Source of the DNA: Rhodospirillaceae bacterium
Lineage (GTDB): Bacteria > Pseudomonadota > Alphaproteobacteria > Thalassobaculales > Thalassobaculaceae
Assembly (NCBI GenBank): GCA_018699735.1
Contig: JABIRP010000365.1
Coordinates: 1-37,576 of the forward strand
DNA length: 37,576 bases
Reading direction: 5' to 3'
The notes under the pieces were generated by a model. The model was not told where the DNA came from and ran no database searches. It was given only the letters and a program-made list of their open reading frames with translations. Below are positions 27,266 to 37,576 of this stretch, one piece after another (position 1 is the stretch's first letter; each line of letters opens with the position of its first letter). Made by a program: the position numbers and the translations under genes.

Positions 27266-29038
27266 TCACAGTCCCTCATTGAAATCATCCAGCAGGGCCG
27301 AGATCCGGCCCTCGTCGGCTTGATCCAGAATCGCCTGGGCCCGGCGGGTGGCGGCGCCCAAATCAAGGGCCCGCACGCGTTGCTTGACCCTGGGGATGCT
27401 GTGCGAGGTCATCGATAGTTCGCGCACCCCCATGCCCAAAAGCAAGGGCGCGAACCTCGGGTTGCCAGCCATCTCGCCGCAAATCGAGGTCGGGATGCCA
27501 GCGCGCTGGGCGGCTCCGACCGTATCCTGCATCAGTCGCAAAACCGCCGGATGCAATGGGTTATAAAGATGCGCCACTTGCTCATCCCCGCGATCGATCG
27601 CAAGCGCGTACTGGATCAGATCGTTGGTTCCGATTGCGAAGAAATCACATTCGCGTGCCAGGGCATCGGCTGTGAGGGCTGCTGCCGGAACTTCTATCAT
27701 CGCTCCCAGCGGCGGCATCTCGGCAACCATCCGCGCCTTGCGACGCTTCAAGCGGGTCCAGACTCGTTTCAGGATTTTTCGAACCTGCCGTACCTGGCTA
27801 GCCGAGGAAATCATCGGCAGTAAAATTCGGATCGGTCCATGCGCTCCAGCACGCAGGATCGCTGCGAGCTGTGTCTCGAGAAGACCCGGTTCCTTGAGGG
27901 ATAGCCGGATAGCGCGTAGCCCAAGCGCTGGATTGGCGCCCTCGACAATGACATCGCCAAGCGCCGCAATCAGTTTTTCTCCACCCACATCGAGGGTTCG
28001 AATGGTAACCGGGCGCCCCTCCATGCCCTCGACGATGCCGCGCAACAGGGCATATTGCTCTTCTTCGTTCGGTAACTCCTCCCGGTTCATAAACAAGAAC
28101 TCGGTGCGCAGCAGCCCGACCCCCTCGGCGCCGGCCCGGTTGGCCGCCTCCACATCGCGGGGCATCTCGATATTGGCCTGCAGCACCGCGCGCCCGCCAT
28201 CTCGGGTTGCCGCCGGTAGTGAGCGAAGCCGCGCCAGTTGACGCCCAAGCCGGCGGCGGGCCTCGGCCTTGCGCTTGTATTCGGCGAGTGTCTCCTCGCT
28301 CGGATCGAGCACGATGCGCCCGGCGTCTCCGTCGACAATGACAGTCTGGCCCGCCCGCGCCTTGCCCAACAATCCGGGGGCGCCGAGCACTGCCGGCAAC
28401 CCCATCGAGCGTGCCATGATCGCGGTGTGGCTTTCGGCCCCGCCAAGAACGGTAACGAATGCTGAGACCCGCTCCGGGTCCATCAAGACCGTATCGGCCG
28501 GGCTCAGCTCGTCGGCGATTAGGACCGTCCCTGGTCGAAGCATTGAAAAGGCCTGAAACGGCGTATCGGTCAGATGCCGCAAGATCCGCGAGCCGATGTC
28601 GCGGACTTCCTGTACGCGGGCGGCGAGATAGGCATCCTTAACCGCAGCGAAGCCTTGCGCGATTTCTCGAACCACGCCCTGCACCGCAGCCTCGGCGTTG
28701 ATGCCGCGTTCTCGGATCTGCCGCTCGACGCCCCGTGTCATGCGTGAGGACCCCAGCATGGCACCATGTGCATCAAGCAGAAGCGTCAGTTCCTCGGCCG
28801 CAGTTTCCGGTAAACCCCGGGTCTTCAGTTTCAACTTGTCGAGTTGCTTATGTGCTTTCACGAGGGCCAATTGAAAGCGCGCGACCTCGCTTTCGATCGC
28901 ATCCTCGCCGACCAGGTACTCCGAAACCTGACCGATACCGGTTTCCATCAGATGAGCCTCGCCGACGGCGATCCCACTTGAGACACCGACGCCATCCAGC
29001 ACGATTTGCTTGGGTGCTTTCTTGCGTTTAGTACTCAC
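27266..29038 (-). CDS. ptsP: PTS enzyme I (phosphoenolpyruvate-protein phosphotransferase)
   Basis: Takes phosphate from PEP and gives it to HPr. The 590 residues have the N-terminal HPr-binding part, the phospho-histidine site GGAESHTAIMARSMGLPAV (His204), and the PEP-binding barrel. Barrel motifs are VGLLRTEFLFM, FFAIGTNDLIQYALAIDR, and the active-site Cys in SICGEMAGN. There is no N-terminal GAF domain, so it is the plain enzyme I form rather than the nitrogen-PTS form; ptsI would also be a fair name. The GTG start has AGGAG 8 nt upstream. It ends the chvI run. Confidence 0.95.
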   Translation of the reverse strand: MSTKRKKAPKQIVLDGVGVSSGIAVGEAHLMETGIGQVSEYLVGEDAIESEVARFQLALVKAHKQLDKLKLKTRGLPETAAEELTLLLDAHGAMLGSSRMTRGVERQIRERGINAEAAVQGVVREIAQGFAAVKDAYLAARVQEVRDIGSRILRHLTDTPFQAFSMLRPGTVLIADELSPADTVLMDPERVSAFVTVLGGAESHTAIMARSMGLPAVLGAPGLLGKARAGQTVIVDGDAGRIVLDPSEETLAEYKRKAEARRRLGRQLARLRSLPAATRDGGRAVLQANIEMPRDVEAANRAGAEGVGLLRTEFLFMNREELPNEEEQYALLRGIVEGMEGRPVTIRTLDVGGEKLIAALGDVIVEGANPALGLRAIRLSLKEPGLLETQLAAILRAGAHGPIRILLPMISSASQVRQVRKILKRVWTRLKRRKARMVAEMPPLGAMIEVPAAALTADALARECDFFAIGTNDLIQYALAIDRGDEQVAHLYNPLHPAVLRLMQDTVGAAQRAGIPTSICGEMAGNPRFAPLLLGMGVRELSMTSHSIPRVKQRVRALDLGAATRRAQAILDQADEGRISALLDDFNEGL

Positions 29039-29047
29039 CGGCTAACT

Positions 29048-29103
29048 CCTCTCGGCTCAGTCCTCCCAGCTCAACCCTCCGAGATCAATCCTCCGAGCTC
29101 AAT
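29048..29103 (-). repeat. Four 14-bp tandem units across the HPr stop
   Basis: Units at 29090-29103, 29076-29089, 29062-29075 and 29048-29061 follow the pattern ATTGAGCTCGGAGG on the minus strand, with 1-5 differences. The first unit contains the HPr stop codon. The repeats fill nearly all of the 60-bp spacer to ptsP, and each carries a purine-rich GGAGG or GAGAGG core. Confidence 0.92.
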
Positions 29104-29410
29104 CCTCATCGAAACGATCGTCGACGAGCTGGGTTATAGCATCAAGCGCTGCCACCGCATCGGTTCCCGCCGCCGCAACATGGATCTCCGTGCCCGGAGA
29201 GGCCGCCAACATCATCAGCCCCATGATCGAGCGCCCGGAAACGGTTTCACCGTCTTTGCTTACGTTGACGTCGGCGGTGAAGGTCTCGACCAGCTTTACG
29301 AATTTAGCTGCAGCACGCGCGTGCAGACCGCGCTTATTGACAATCGTCAGCCTGCATTCGACCGGCTCGGCGTTCTCCGCCGGCTTGGAGATATCCATGT
29401 CGTTCGGCAA
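29099..29410 (-). CDS. HPr phosphocarrier protein
   Basis: Small PTS carrier that takes phosphate from enzyme I and passes it to EIIA. The 103 residues contain the phospho-His site NKRGLHARAAAKFV (His30) and the regulatory serine site GRSIMGLMMLA (Ser61), the target of HprK. The TTG at 29410 has GGGGA 5 nt upstream inside the end of the EIIA gene. The ATG at 29398 has no ribosome site but would give a more usual start. The first 15-17 residues are an extension not needed for the fold. Confidence 0.94.
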   Translation of the reverse strand: MPNDMDISKPAENAEPVECRLTIVNKRGLHARAAAKFVKLVETFTADVNVSKDGETVSGRSIMGLMMLAASPGTEIHVAAAGTDAVAALDAITQLVDDRFDED

Positions 29411-29411
29411 A

Positions 29412-29837
29412 TCAATCCCCGGTCAGCACTTGCGAAGCGATACGAATGTATTTTCTGCCGGCTTCCTGAGCCGCCGCCGCCGCATCACTCATCGACATCG
29501 ACGCCCGCGCACTGGCAAGCTTAACCAGCATCGGCAGATTGACGCCGGCGATAACCTCGATATTCGCTTGATCCATAATCGATATCGCAAGGTTGGAGGG
29601 CGTTCCGCCGAACATGTCGGTCAGCACGATCACCCCCTGGCCCGCGTCCATCTCCTTGACCGACTTTAGGATCTCGTCGCGACGCTGTTCCATATCGTCG
29701 TCGGCGTCGATGCAGATCGTTGAGACCCTATCGAGCGCACCCACCACATGCTCAAGTGCGCTGCGTAGCTCATCGGCTAAACGCCCATGGGTCACGAGCA
29801 CCAGCCCAATCGGCGCCCCTTCCTCAGCCTCTGCCAT
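29412..29837 (-). CDS. PTS EIIA component, mannose/fructose type
   Basis: A 141-residue EIIA-Man domain standing alone, without EIIB, EIIC or EIID. The phospho-His is His17 in VLVTHGRLADEL. The TDMFGGTPSNLA segment and the IEVIAGVNLPML strand are typical. In this alphaproteobacterial cluster the protein is thought to act in regulation rather than sugar uptake. It overlaps closely with the HPr gene (one base between stop and the TTG start). Confidence 0.95.
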   Translation of the reverse strand: MAEAEEGAPIGLVLVTHGRLADELRSALEHVVGALDRVSTICIDADDDMEQRRDEILKSVKEMDAGQGVIVLTDMFGGTPSNLAISIMDQANIEVIAGVNLPMLVKLASARASMSMSDAAAAAQEAGRKYIRIASQVLTGD

Positions 29838-29857
29838 TCCCCACTCCAGATTTTCTG

Positions 29858-29883
29858 CCCAGTTTGATCACCCTGTTTGATCG
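29858..29883 (-). repeat. Two 13-bp tandem units in the rapZ-EIIA spacer
   Basis: CCCAGTTTGATCA (29858-29870) and CCCTGTTTGATCG (29871-29883), plus strand, match at 11 of 13 positions. Unlike the other spacer repeats they do not include a stop codon of the upstream gene. Confidence 0.7.
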
Positions 29884-29908
29884 TTTTTGGTCTTGTCACC
29901 GCGCGCCT

Positions 29909-30799
29909 TCATGACTCGGACGCTTTGCGAGCGACATCCCGATGCAACAGGGTGACAGGATGCCCCCCGCTCTTCAACCGCTTCGCCAATTCTTCAGAGA
30001 CGAAGACCGAACGATGCTGGCCACCCGTGCATCCGACCGCGAGCGTCAGGTAGCTCTTGCCCTCCGCCTTGTAACGCGGCAACAGCGGTTCGATCAGCCC
30101 AATCAAATTGGCAAAAAACGGTGCAAACCCCTCGTCGCGCGCGATAAATTCGGCAACCGGAGCGTCGCGCCCATCGAGCGGTCTGAGGTCGGTGTCCCAA
30201 TGCGGGTTGTTGAGGAACCGCACATCGAAAACCATGTCCGCATCTCTTGGGATCCCGTTCCGGAAACCAAATGATGTCACGGTAACTGTTAGCCCACGCT
30301 CACCGTCTATTCCAAGGCGCTCGAGCAGCAAGCGCCGAAAATCCGTCAACGAGGTCTGCGAGGTATCGAGGACCACATCAGCCAAATCTCGGATCGGCGC
30401 CATCATTCGGCGCTCCAGGCGAATGCCATCGATCACCCGGCGGTCCTGGGCCAAGGGATGGCGACGGCGGGTTTCGGTAAAGCGTCGGATCAACACATCA
30501 TCGTCGCAATCGAGATATACCACCTGGATCGCAACATCATCGCGGCCACCATGCCGGTCCAGTTCAGCAACCAACGCATCCACGGCAAAATCGCGGGTTC
30601 GTACGTCGACCCCGACGGCAATCCGAGGCGGCCCGGTTTCGCGGTTGGCCGACGGCGCGAACAATGCCGGCAAGAGCGCCAGCGGCAGATTGTCGACCGC
30701 CTCAAAGCCTGCATCCTCTAGCGTTTTTAAGCAAGAGGTCCGCCCGGCCCCTGATAGGCCGGTGACCAAAACCGCATGGCGGGAACCCGTCTCGCTCAT
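29909..30799 (-). CDS. rapZ: RapZ-type nucleotide-binding protein
   Basis: RapZ (YvcJ/YhbJ) family. In E. coli it senses GlcN6P and guides RNase E to a small RNA. The 296 residues start with a Walker A-like TGLSGAGRTS, where Arg takes the place of the usual Lys, followed by DNLPLALLP. The C-terminal domain has FDVRFLNNP and the GCTGGQHRSV motif. An ATG at 30799 has AGGGAAG 6-7 nt upstream; a GTG directly before it is a weaker alternative. It lies 10-13 bases after hprK. Confidence 0.94.
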   Translation of the reverse strand: MSETGSRHAVLVTGLSGAGRTSCLKTLEDAGFEAVDNLPLALLPALFAPSANRETGPPRIAVGVDVRTRDFAVDALVAELDRHGGRDDVAIQVVYLDCDDDVLIRRFTETRRRHPLAQDRRVIDGIRLERRMMAPIRDLADVVLDTSQTSLTDFRRLLLERLGIDGERGLTVTVTSFGFRNGIPRDADMVFDVRFLNNPHWDTDLRPLDGRDAPVAEFIARDEGFAPFFANLIGLIEPLLPRYKAEGKSYLTLAVGCTGGQHRSVFVSEELAKRLKSGGHPVTLLHRDVARKASES

Positions 30800-30812
30800 C
30801 ACCGCTTCCCTT

Positions 30813-31232
30813 TCAGATCGACGCGATCGACGTCAGTGCCAAACGCAGCTTAATAGGCGCCGAAGCCTCGAACGGTGCCAAACCCAACAGCGGAACCGCA
30901 AGACCGAGATATTCACAGGATCCTGGGTCCGGCGCTCGCTCAACCTGATCGACCGGCACCATATCGACAACCAATACCAGCGGCGCGCGCGGAACACTAT
31001 CGACCGGCACAATTCCAATGCCTCGGATTTCGATTTGGCCGGATATCACATCCGGTGCCGCCGCGACCAAGGTACTGCCCTCCCGTGCGAGGCGGGTCTG
31101 ATCGTCAGCCACCAAGCGCCCACCGGCATCGATAACCCTAAGAGCCAGATCGGACTTGCCGCTGCCCGACGGGCCGCGCAGAAGCACGCCTCGGCCATCG
31201 ATCGCCACACAGGTTCCCCAAACCAGCTCCAT
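30813..31232 (-). CDS. hprK: HPr kinase/phosphorylase, short alphaproteobacterial form
   Basis: Phosphorylates HPr on serine. At 139 residues it is only the C-terminal catalytic domain, as usual in alphaproteobacteria; the Firmicute enzyme has about 310. The P-loop is RGPSGSGKSDLALR (19-32), followed by LVADDQTRL and the IEIRGIGIV signature. An in-frame stop close upstream fixes the ATG. It follows chvG by about 50 bases and precedes rapZ by about 10. Confidence 0.95.
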   Translation of the reverse strand: MELVWGTCVAIDGRGVLLRGPSGSGKSDLALRVIDAGGRLVADDQTRLAREGSTLVAAAPDVISGQIEIRGIGIVPVDSVPRAPLVLVVDMVPVDQVERAPDPGSCEYLGLAVPLLGLAPFEASAPIKLRLALTSIASI

Positions 31233-31281
31233 GGGAAGGATTCGTCACGCGTCGAGGCGGAGAGTCAATGCTCGCGCTGTC

Positions 31282-32916
31282 TCAGACGGTGGGAGGGTGC
31301 ATTTTTTCCGTCAGGCGTGGTATCGAGACCACAAATCGTGCCCCCGCTACCGCGCCGTTCTCGTCATTCCTATTTTCCGCCCAAATTCGGCCAGCATGCG
31401 CTTCGACGATTTGGCGCGATATCGACAATCCCAAGCCGGAATGGGTCCCGAACTTTTCACCCTCGGGGCGTTCACTGTAAAACCGATCAAATATTGCAGC
31501 GAGTTTGCCTTCCGGAATGCCCGGGCCATCATCTTCCACCGAGACAATCACGGTTTCGTCGTCTACTCGAGCCTGAAGGCGCACAGTGCCGCCTTCGGGT
31601 GAAAAGCTGACCGCGTTGGCGAGAAGATTGCGCACAACCTGAACCAATCGGTTCTCATGTCCCTGCACAAACAACGCCGAACCGTCCGGGATTTCGCAGC
31701 GAACCGCCACACCACGATTAGCACCGGTCGCGGTCTGCAACTCCGCCATCATCGTAAGCATAGCGCCCATATCGAGCGGGCCGGTCTCGTCGCGAGACAA
31801 CTCCGCATCCAGTCGCGAGGCCTCGGAAATGTCGCTGATCAAGCGGTCAAGCCGGGCGACATCGTCATGAATGATGGCGAGAAGCTTTTTCTGCTGCTCC
31901 GGGTCGTCGATCCTGGTCGCGGTCTCGACAGCACTGCGAACCGAGGTCAGAGGGTTCTTGATCTCATGCGCCACATCGGCAGCGAAACGCTCGATCGCGT
32001 CCATGCGCTGCCAAAGAGCCTCGTTCATCTCGCCAATCGCGCGTGACAAGTCACCGATCTCATCGCGCCGCTCGACGAACTCAGGGATCGCTTGGCGACG
32101 ATTTCGGTTCGCCGTGACCGCCTCTGCTGCCGCCGCCAAGCGTTGCACCGGCCGGGTGATCGAGCCCGCCAGATAGAGCGACAGCAATACCGTGATCGCG
32201 AACACCACGGCGAACACGCCCAAAATTTCAAACCGAACCGAGCGCACCGCCTGATCGATCTCTCTGCCATCAATCGACAACATCAAGGCGCCCAGGACAT
32301 GGCGGTAGTTCTGCACAGGCACGGCAACGCTCAAAACCAACTCACCCTCGTCTGTCACGCGAACTGTGCTGGCATTCGCTCCCGCCAGGGCGGCCATCAC
32401 CTCTTGGTATTGCCGTGCATGCTGAACCGCCGCCTCGCGGTAGTGAGGCATGTCGCCCCGCCTCGGCAACCAGTTCACGACACGCTCGTAAATGCGCACC
32501 GCGAACTCGCCGCCAAACCCACTGGCAAACCCGCCACCAGCCTCGCTGCCCGGTGGCGGCAAGGGGCGGATCTGAACCAAGCCACCCGGCAACCCACCGG
32601 GCCGTCCAATCACCAAGCTGTCGGCGATCAAAATACCGTCGGAGGAAAAGACCCGTGCACGCTTGCCCAACAAAAGACTGGCACGTCGCAACATGCGTCG
32701 AACAATGTCGTCTGACAGCCGTTGATCGGCTGCAAATTTCTGTTCGATTGCAAGTTCGGCGATTGCCCGGCCAAAGATCTCGGCTTGACCAGACATGGCT
32801 TCCAACTCGGCCCGAATAAGGCTGTTCTGATACCGGTCGAGATAGAGCACACCGACAAACAAGATGGCGACCGCGAAAAGGTTGATCGCCAATATGCGTG
32901 CCGTCAGACGCGACAA
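31282..32916 (-). CDS. chvG: ChvG/ExoS-type sensor histidine kinase
   Basis: Membrane sensor of the ChvG-ChvI system, which responds to acid or envelope stress in other alphaproteobacteria. The 544 residues have membrane helices at about 8-26 and 231-250 around a periplasmic sensor domain. HAMP follows (about 251-305), then the H-box AADVAHEIKNPLTS (His317), the N-box RNLLANAVSF, G1 DDGPGI and G2 GLGLS. The only usual start in frame is the TTG at 32916. The frame stays open upstream into the end of chvI with CTG codons but no ATG or GTG nearby, so the true start is uncertain. Confidence 0.94.
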   Translation of the reverse strand: MSRLTARILAINLFAVAILFVGVLYLDRYQNSLIRAELEAMSGQAEIFGRAIAELAIEQKFAADQRLSDDIVRRMLRRASLLLGKRARVFSSDGILIADSLVIGRPGGLPGGLVQIRPLPPPGSEAGGGFASGFGGEFAVRIYERVVNWLPRRGDMPHYREAAVQHARQYQEVMAALAGANASTVRVTDEGELVLSVAVPVQNYRHVLGALMLSIDGREIDQAVRSVRFEILGVFAVVFAITVLLSLYLAGSITRPVQRLAAAAEAVTANRNRRQAIPEFVERRDEIGDLSRAIGEMNEALWQRMDAIERFAADVAHEIKNPLTSVRSAVETATRIDDPEQQKKLLAIIHDDVARLDRLISDISEASRLDAELSRDETGPLDMGAMLTMMAELQTATGANRGVAVRCEIPDGSALFVQGHENRLVQVVRNLLANAVSFSPEGGTVRLQARVDDETVIVSVEDDGPGIPEGKLAAIFDRFYSERPEGEKFGTHSGLGLSISRQIVEAHAGRIWAENRNDENGAVAGARFVVSIPRLTEKMHPPTV

Positions 32917-32945
32917 TCTTCGCCGTCCGGTTTTCAGGCTCTTAG

Positions 32946-33662
32946 TCAGGCTGCCGCCTCCAGGCTCGGATCGCGATAACGATACCCAACACCATACAAC
33001 GTCTCGATCTGATCGAAGTCCTCATCCACGACTTTGAACTTCTTGCGCAGTCTTTTGATGTGGCTGTCGATGGTTCGATCGTCGACATAGATGGACTCTC
33101 CGTAAGCCGAGTCCATCAACTGGTCGCGGTTCTTGACGTGCCCTGGTCGGGTCGCAAGTGACTTCAGGATCAGGAATTCAGTGACCGTCAGCGCCACAGG
33201 CTGGCCGCGCCAGGTGCAGAGATGACGTGACGCGTCGAGCACCAGATCACCGCGCACGATCATCGACTCCGCCGAAGTTTCGCCATCGTCCTGCGCCAGG
33301 TCCTGGCGTCGTAGCAAGGCCCGGATCCGCTCGATCAACAGGCGCTGCGAGAACGGTTTGGTGATGTAGTCGTCGGCACCCATCCGCAAACCCAGAACTT
33401 CGTCCACCTCGTCGTCCTTCGAGGTCAAGAAGATCACCGGCACGGCGGAGTTTCGTCGCAGCCGCTGCAGCAACTCCATCCCGTCCATACGCGGCATTTT
33501 GATGTCGAGCACCGCCAGGTCAGCCGGGCGCTGGGTCAAACCCCGCAGGGCTTCCTCCCCATCATTGAAGGTCCGGACCTCAAAGCCTTCCGCTTCCAAC
33601 GACATGGTGACAGAGGTTAGGATATTTCGGTCGTCATCGACGAGCGCTATGGTGTGAGCCAT
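32946..33662 (-). CDS. chvI: ChvI-type response regulator (OmpR family)
   Basis: Transcription factor partner of ChvG. The 238 residues hold a receiver domain with acidic pocket Asp9-Asp11, phospho-acceptor Asp53 ([10 protein letters not shown]), Thr80 and Lys102. A winged helix at about 140-232 includes [23 protein letters not shown] lies 7 nt before the ATG. It opens the run to ptsP. Confidence 0.96.
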
Positions 33663-36418: not shown

Positions 36419-36463
36419 AAAGGGGACATTCTGCTTTATGCCATAAAGCAGAATGTCCCCTTT
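36419..36463. repeat. Perfect 22-bp inverted repeat between convergent genes
   Basis: A 22-base arm (36419-36440, core GGGGACATTCTGC) and its exact complement (36442-36463) are separated by a single C. The plus-strand copy ends in TTTT and the minus-strand copy in TTTAATTT, so it can terminate both pckA and the Hpt gene. The near-zero loop and perfect match are more like a REP/MITE-type palindrome than an ordinary terminator. Confidence 0.9.
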
Positions 36464-36470
36464 TATATTC

Positions 36471-37229
36471 TCAGGACATCAGCGTCGTCATGACCTCGGC
36501 CAGACCTTCCTCGAAGCCTGTCTGGGTACTGATGATTGGGGTCCCTTCGGGCACCCCCGCCAGCTCATTGTGGCCCGGCTTAAAGCTAGTCACGACGGCA
36601 ACCGGGATGTCCTGGGTGGCGTTCATAGTGTTCAAAGCGCGGATCACATCCACCCCACCAAGCCCATCCAGCGTTGGAGATATCAGGATCAGATCCGGGC
36701 GTCCGAGAACGGCCTCGCGCAAGCCTTCGAACGGATCGGTCGAGATAATCGTGCCACACCCAAGTTCGCCCAACACGGCGGCCACCAGCCGACCAATAAT
36801 GCGATTGTGGTTCACCAGCAGGACCTGGATACGCTTGCCGCTTGAAGCCGTGATCGCGTGGCTGTGAAATACCGGCAAGGACGTCAAGATTTTAGTCATC
36901 GCCGAGTCGTTTGGGTTCTTGGCCTTCTCAACGATCGTTGTCAGATGGTCGAGAAAAACATGCACTTCGCCCCAATCAATCTCACCGGCATCATCGGATT
37001 GCTTTATGTAGCTCTCCAAGCGATGCGAGATGGTGGTAATGGCCGGAAAACCGAACATGCCGCCCATGCCTTTCAGGCTATGGATCTCGCGATGGACGTC
37101 GATACTGATGTCGCGCCACTTCTTGGCACCGGATTCAATTTCAACAATAGACGTATCTATTCGTTGTAGGCGGTCGCTTGATTCGTCGACGAACTCTTGC
37201 GTCAGAGTTTCGATCATGCCGTTGCTCAT
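36471..37229 (-). CDS. Hpt phosphotransfer protein with degenerate receiver domain
   Basis: The 252-residue protein has an N-terminal histidine phosphotransfer domain (about 5-105) with the phospho-site HREIHSLKGMGG (His50). A CheY-like fold follows (about 133-250). In the second domain the acidic pocket reads VNHN instead of VDD, and the acceptor Asp is replaced by Ser184 (LILISPTLDG). Thr214 and Lys217 remain, so it is a pseudoreceiver. I do not recognise a named orthologue. The ATG at 37229 has only a weak GGGG upstream. It follows polA by 38 bases. Confidence 0.85.
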   Translation of the reverse strand: MSNGMIETLTQEFVDESSDRLQRIDTSIVEIESGAKKWRDISIDVHREIHSLKGMGGMFGFPAITTISHRLESYIKQSDDAGEIDWGEVHVFLDHLTTIVEKAKNPNDSAMTKILTSLPVFHSHAITASSGKRIQVLLVNHNRIIGRLVAAVLGELGCGTIISTDPFEGLREAVLGRPDLILISPTLDGLGGVDVIRALNTMNATQDIPVAVVTSFKPGHNELAGVPEGTPIISTQTGFEEGLAEVMTTLMS

Positions 37230-37267: not shown

Positions 37268-37576
37268 TTAATGCGCCTCGGCCCAGCTGCCGCCAGATCC
37301 AGCATCAGCCACCAAGGGCACGGAAATCTGAACCGCCGGTTCGGCCGCCGCCTCCATCACTTGGCGGACCAGCGCCGTCGTCTCTTCAAGCTCAGCCTCC
37401 GGCAACTCGAAAATCAACTCATCATGCACCTGCAACAACATACGCGCTGCTAAACCGGCGGCGCTCAACGCCGGCGGCACCCGAACCATGGCCCGCTTGA
37501 TCACGTCGGCGGCGGAGCCCTGAATTGGTGCGTTGATAGCAGCACGCTCGGAAAATCCACGCCGCGCAGGATTGGC
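37268..37576 (-). CDS. polA: DNA polymerase I, C-terminal end (partial)
   Basis: The last 102 codons of polA, entering from the right edge. The frame shows RAAINAPIQGSAADVIKRAM, which is the end of the polymerase fingers/palm region. Motif C follows as LLQVHDELIFE, with the catalytic Asp, and then the usual short tail. The 5' part is outside the window. Confidence 0.96.
   Translation of the reverse strand, partial: ANPARRGFSERAAINAPIQGSAADVIKRAMVRVPPALSAAGLAARMLLQVHDELIFELPEAELEETTALVRQVMEAAAEPAVQISVPLVADAGSGGSWAEAH

Follow-up and report, generated by a model that had tools for sequence, protein, structure and literature searches.

Near the right-hand end of the window (the whole stretch of DNA analysed, 37,576 nucleotides in length) lies a gene on the minus strand (positions 36471..37229, stop included) that begins with ATG and encodes a protein of 252 amino acids. 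It starts 38 bp past the 3' end of polA (37268..37576, minus), which lies upstream on the same strand, and it is convergent with pckA; neither neighbour is a signalling gene. Elsewhere in the window (27266–33662) is a consecutive series of ORF translations that we take to be ptsI, HPr, EIIA, rapZ, HPr kinase, chvG and chvI, which is a usual alphaproteobacterial order. A single-protein search finds full-length relatives in 18 of 61 genomes (20 rows, the window's own genome and 17 others), and dN is lower than dS in both halves of the protein in 9/9 pairs of relatives (dN/dS 0.03 to 0.30), so we regard the ORF as a real gene and not a chance reading frame. These pairs are drawn from the relatives only, as none is close enough to the window protein to be paired with it.

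A Pfam scan of the 252-residue protein reports only Hpt and receiver regions. Together with an alignment to the ChvI receiver, whose gene is also in the window, and with the predicted folds, this bears out the layout proposed in a first-pass annotation of the sequence, namely an Hpt domain joined to a receiver that lacks its phosphorylation site. An AlphaFold2 model, calculated from an alignment of the window protein with twelve relatives (mean pLDDT 84.7, pTM 0.49), contains two well-formed domains, the mutual arrangement of which is uncertain at this pTM, and a low-confidence stretch at residues 124–130 of the linker that connects them (residues 118–133; 36831..36878, minus). The linker opens with Leu-Pro, the Pro being present in 62/62 rows and the Leu in 60/62. 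Structure prediction, which the annotation had recommended, gives an Hpt-type bundle for the first half and a receiver fold for the second. The ChpT family (PF10090, HPTransfase) is absent from the four Pfam families that match the protein at E values up to 1, and a separate HPTransfase match is found elsewhere in the same genome (G000:C397).

The Hpt domain (PF01627, residues 9–97; 36939..37205, minus) scores 46.1 bits, over the curated Pfam threshold of 24.6. Five helices are predicted for this half (residues 2–32, 38–58, 62–81, 86–102 and 108–117), and residues 1–120 folded alone give five helices, with a pLDDT of 93.9. Among solved structures, the best sequence matches are to CheA phosphotransfer domains (2ld6, E 7e-8; 1tqg, E 2e-7), and CheA P1 domains are likewise the top five hits in a structure search with the model (TM 0.68/0.77 for 1tqg), although these hits have modest Foldseek E values (from 6e-3 to 2e-2) and scores nearly as good are reached by designed four-helix bundles. 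P1 is joined to a kinase in CheA, whereas here the equivalent domain is joined to a pseudo-receiver. The presumed phospho-acceptor, His50 (codon 37080..37082, minus), is intact as the annotation had claimed, and is followed by Lys53 and by Gly54 at H+4, the position at which efficient phosphotransfer by Ypd1 is described as needing a small residue (PMC6341664).

The second half (residues 135–252; 36474..36827, minus) has a receiver fold as judged by Pfam, the model, the structure search and the ChvI alignment. The match to Pfam Response_reg (PF00072) covers residues 136–217 and, at 21.7 bits, is under the cut-off of 30.2; by sequence the best solved relatives are ordinary receivers such as PleD. 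Compared with solved receivers the second-domain model gives Z scores of 17.8–19.3 and rmsd values of 1.6–2.3 Å over 107–120 residues in the 50 matches shown, and a different fold for this half is rejected on the strength of the model and these matches. The region of helix 4 (215–231) is nearly all loop in the model.

Placing the pocket positions by alignment to the ChvI receiver, we find that Asn140 and His141 (36807..36812, minus) align with the Asp pair of ChvI and so replace the two metal-binding acidic residues, in agreement with the VNHN motif previously noted in place of the acidic pocket. Ser184 (36678..36680, minus) is indeed at the position of the acceptor Asp, in both the ChvI and the family alignments, and the ChvI alignment identifies Thr214 (36588..36590, minus) as the pocket Thr, which is retained. 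The first-pass annotation was mistaken, however, in stating that the conserved Lys remains as Lys217 (36579..36581, minus). The receiver Lys belongs to beta 5, about 22 columns past the Thr, whereas Lys217 comes three residues past Thr214 and falls in the loop that follows beta 4, as the ChvI and family alignments both indicate, and a Lys at this position is found in the window protein only among 63 aligned members. As residues 227–252 do not include any Lys, the beta-5 Lys is absent, only Thr214 is kept of the five pocket residues, and the pocket is more degraded than the annotation described. With a receiver fold from which the phosphotransfer residues are missing, the second half is a pseudo-receiver (ALR) by definition and not a canonical receiver (PF00072).

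To define the family we assembled 74 members from alphaproteobacterial genomes, consisting of 63 distinct sequences and 11 more, with one listed full-length match left out. A single-sequence scan of the genome contigs confirmed no relative, while a profile scan yielded 15 loci, from which we excluded one with the receiver half only (L055, 24%) and two partial ones (L053–L054). When a profile was run against 385 genomes of the window's class, 148 gave matches at E values up to 1e-12, and most of the weaker matches listed span the receiver half only and are ordinary receivers; at 1e-40 or better there are matches in 44/385 genomes, representing 24 family codes. Copy numbers from this search are lower bounds because at most six candidates were scored per genome. 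Members are present in Thalassobaculum fulvum, T. litoreum, Nisaea denitrificans, N. nitritireducens and strain BAL199. In a sample of the phylum, the class make-up of which is not stated, matches at 1e-25 or better occur in 6/299 genomes, all of the window's class, and a plasmid collection queried with one distant member gave no match. Fusions of receiver and Hpt domains are already known, the RRHPt type being counted in PMC4558063, as are receivers that lack catalytic residues, which are described as pseudo-receivers (PMC12632262, PMC4395418, PMC7010744). Among the matches listed from open-licence literature we found no description of an Hpt-then-receiver family in which the receiver is dead throughout and the Hpt is often dead, and this alphaproteobacterial family is apparently undescribed.

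The loss of the phosphorylation site from the receiver half is common to all members seen. An acidic residue is present at the acceptor position in 0/74 members, where we find Ser (57), Ala (9), Thr (3), Asn (2), Gly (1), Gln (1) and Pro (1); homologues with an intact Asp, which the annotation had named as evidence against its reading, were sought and none was found. Both metal-binding acids are likewise present in 0/74, although in nine members one of the two positions is acidic. At position 214 there are 70 Thr, two Ser and two Ala. Conserved non-catalytic positions in the family are 214–215, 227, 236 and 242, from which the window protein departs at 236 and 242.

The Hpt half is more variable. 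The His is present in 45/71 members that cover the site and absent from 26/71, and in at least two of those without it Pfam reports no Hpt match. Mean column entropy over 62 rows is 1.81 bits for the receiver half against 2.41 bits for the Hpt half, and mean pairwise identity is 0.41 against 0.33 in the 38 rows with the His and 0.49 against 0.28 in the 24 rows without it; if anything, the receiver half is more conserved in the His-less rows. A Gly at H+4 is seen in 39/45 members with the His and 9/26 without it, although a tie between loss of the His and loss of this Gly is not significant after correction for common descent, well-supported branches providing 5 independent pairs. In six members with the His, H+4 is Ile, which argues against phosphotransfer in those six. 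On a tree of 62 rows the His state changes at least eight times, five of the changes being forced by well-supported branches, and as the tree is unrooted each change may be a gain or a loss. Both forms occur together in 8/10 genomes with at least two members that cover the site, from which we draw no conclusion, because, given these proportions, a fair fraction of genomes would be mixed in any case.

On this tree the window protein, which sits on a long branch (1.43), clusters with ten proteins of its family that are linked to polA or pckA (98/85). The motif H-x-x-K-G is present in 11/11 rows of this clade, and in a 12-sequence alignment that includes two Nisaea proteins and a further relative (L017), His50, Lys53, Gly54 and Ser184 are invariant. 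Because the motif is invariant and dN is lower than dS in pairs of relatives, the Hpt site of the clade is, judging from sequence conservation, under constraint, and phosphotransfer by the Hpt is likely within it, although this speaks less surely for the window protein itself as it is a long branch.

The annotation had suggested looking for orthologues beside polA. A polA neighbour does occur in several relatives but is not general: among twelve relatives (L041–L052) polA lies nearby in six, pckA in six and both in three, while three Nisaea loci have neither, and the surroundings of L110, sister to the window's clade, are different. Nor is the layout peculiar to the polA locus, since relatives are also found beside other genes, including one for a DUF455 protein and others that we read as hemA, rnr/topA, peroxiredoxin and hslU. 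Those at four loci in four genomes (L121, L130, L135 and L144) adjoin or lie near the presumed hemA (5-aminolevulinate synthase). The DUF455 neighbour is seen in the window's own genome, where a second member on another contig (C107; L031:6797–7555, minus) has Asp at the position of the Hpt His, gives no Pfam match at E 0.01 and overlaps the start of the downstream DUF455 gene; relatives of this DUF455 gene are also near members in L113, L115, L116, L133 and L143.

The neighbourhoods in Nisaea are different in kind. In 5/5 genomes of this group (g2) a gene for a PAS-HisKA-HATPase kinase lies downstream of the member on the same strand, with 186–195 bp between matches, and the kinases of the other four genomes are 69–72% identical to the G021 copy. 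At one locus (L036) Pfam also identifies a single-domain response regulator, a second Hpt gene and a DUF2336 gene beside the member, and at another (L040) there is a multi-PAS kinase. The two clusters (L036:4134–8919 and L040:1334–8698), with DUF2336, the second Hpt (L036), one or two PAS kinases, a single-domain regulator and the Hpt-pseudo-receiver protein, look like a complete signalling module, and this context connects the family with two-component signalling. The kinase-linked Nisaea proteins, which are more distant relatives, cluster with L061 and L062 (97/92), apart from the window's clade, and the link is therefore indirect for the window protein. As a partner of the window protein the Nisaea kinase itself was considered and rejected, as outside Nisaea the matches listed are 32–48% identical and most cover the kinase core only.

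Several known systems resemble this arrangement in part. Plant Hpt proteins termed pseudo-HPt exist in the literature; these lack the His, and one of them, AHP6, inhibits, and they have no receiver domain. The nearest known design is, by analogy, RcsD of enterobacteria, in which an Hpt is next to a regulator-binding domain and which links a hybrid kinase and a regulator (PMC7418988, PMC13317618). Its ABL domain, beside the Hpt, is described as binding RcsB and inhibiting RcsB phosphorylation (PMC7418988, citing an earlier paper). However, RcsD is a large membrane-bound kinase-like protein with the order ABL then HPt, whereas here a protein of 252 residues has the Hpt followed by the pseudo-receiver. 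Osp of Rhodobacter sphaeroides and FixT are alphaproteobacterial receiver-like proteins from which the metal-binding acids are missing and which act on a kinase while themselves unphosphorylated; Osp inhibits CckA through the transmitter domain of CckA (PMC9430884). Osp also resembles the window protein in missing the beta-5 Lys, but it keeps its acceptor Asp (D51), and both Osp and FixT are single-domain proteins that have no Hpt, unlike the window protein with its fused Hpt (PMC9430884). FrzS, the second domain of PleD and REC1 of ShkA share a receiver fold minus catalytic residues, although the passages that describe them (PMC12632262, PMC4395418, PMC7010744) do not mention a family combining an Hpt with a pseudo-receiver.

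A plausible explanation for these observations, to which we give an even chance, is that the window protein acts as a soluble adaptor in two-component signalling, whose pseudo-receiver docks unphosphorylated and whose Hpt, in this clade, still passes phosphate. The C-terminal pseudo-receiver would be a non-phosphorylatable docking domain for a two-component partner, for which the dimerisation domain of a histidine kinase, a response regulator and the protein's own Hpt half are candidates. In the window's clade His50 would accept phosphate from the receiver of a hybrid kinase and donate it to a response regulator, the pseudo-receiver setting the specificity of the transfer or holding the partner while it takes place. 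In the His-less relatives docking alone would remain, and because so many relatives have lost the His and would keep docking only, we infer that docking is the function shared by the family. The first-pass annotation had taken the second domain to be a docking or regulatory module that controls phosphotransfer through the Hpt. Its idea of such a module is plausible; the general part of the claim does not stand, since the His is gone from 26/71 members that keep the pseudo-receiver. Control of Hpt phosphotransfer is possible for the window protein but cannot be the general function of the family.

The same evidence bears on other arrangements of the two halves. Hpt domains and receivers are natural docking partners, and together with the low model confidence of the linker at 124–130 this would suit an intramolecular cap, in which the pseudo-receiver packs against the Hpt surface within the same polypeptide, keeping His50 masked until freed by a ligand or partner. 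We think this improbable, as the relative placement of the domains is not confident in the full-length model and a cap leaves the retention of the pseudo-receiver in His-less members unexplained. In a further reading, with the receiver dead in every member seen and the Hpt His gone from over a third, both halves of the phosphorelay would have become binding modules that signal by docking alone, with His50 kept as an extra in the window protein, which is possible although we doubt it somewhat.

An inhibitor or decoy of the Osp/FixT type, with the pseudo-receiver binding and blocking a histidine kinase and the Hpt-like bundle serving as a scaffold or decoy even where it has the His, would agree with the dispensability of the His across the family, and it has precedents in Osp, which inhibits CckA unphosphorylated, and FixT, which acts likewise on FixL (PMC9430884). 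A pure scaffold, however, needs no H-x-x-K-G, yet the motif is kept in 11/11 clade rows over long branches, and we consider this explanation unlikely. Sensing of a second messenger or metabolite by the pseudo-receiver has a precedent in the same class, where REC1 of ShkA from Caulobacter binds c-di-GMP (PMC7010744), and the conserved non-catalytic positions noted above could be read in its favour, two of them (236 and 242) being positions at which the window protein departs from the family; such sensing seems to us quite improbable here. An adaptor with a docking pseudo-receiver and, in the window's clade, a working Hpt is the explanation that we favour.

The switching mechanisms of bacterial pseudo-receivers are described in a 2025 review as still a mystery, and the same review gives the His as missing from 0.9% of Hpt domains (90/10,312) and the Asp from 2.0% of receivers (3,111/152,269) (PMC12632262). 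In the present family the acceptor Asp is missing from 74/74 members and the Hpt His from 26/71, notwithstanding that the samples are not alike. Pfam recognises no Hpt domain in at least two of the members without the His, and proteins of this sort would therefore escape Pfam-based counts. The small size of the protein, its presence in genera with named species (Thalassobaculum and Nisaea) and the natural occurrence of forms with and without the His make the role of a pseudo-receiver for an Hpt directly testable.

Lastly, a long palindrome (36419–36463; 20 pairs, loop of 3–5) lies between the convergent ends of the gene and pckA. Terminator-like sites of this kind are no more numerous than expected by chance, two being found against 1.6 in shuffles. 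Its 17-base core, allowing up to two mismatches, has 19 copies in the genome, compared with 0 for a reversed-pattern control, and it occurs seven times as facing pairs about 22 bp apart; the palindrome is a dispersed REP-like repeat. The genome also contains one match to a Y1-transposase (PF01797).
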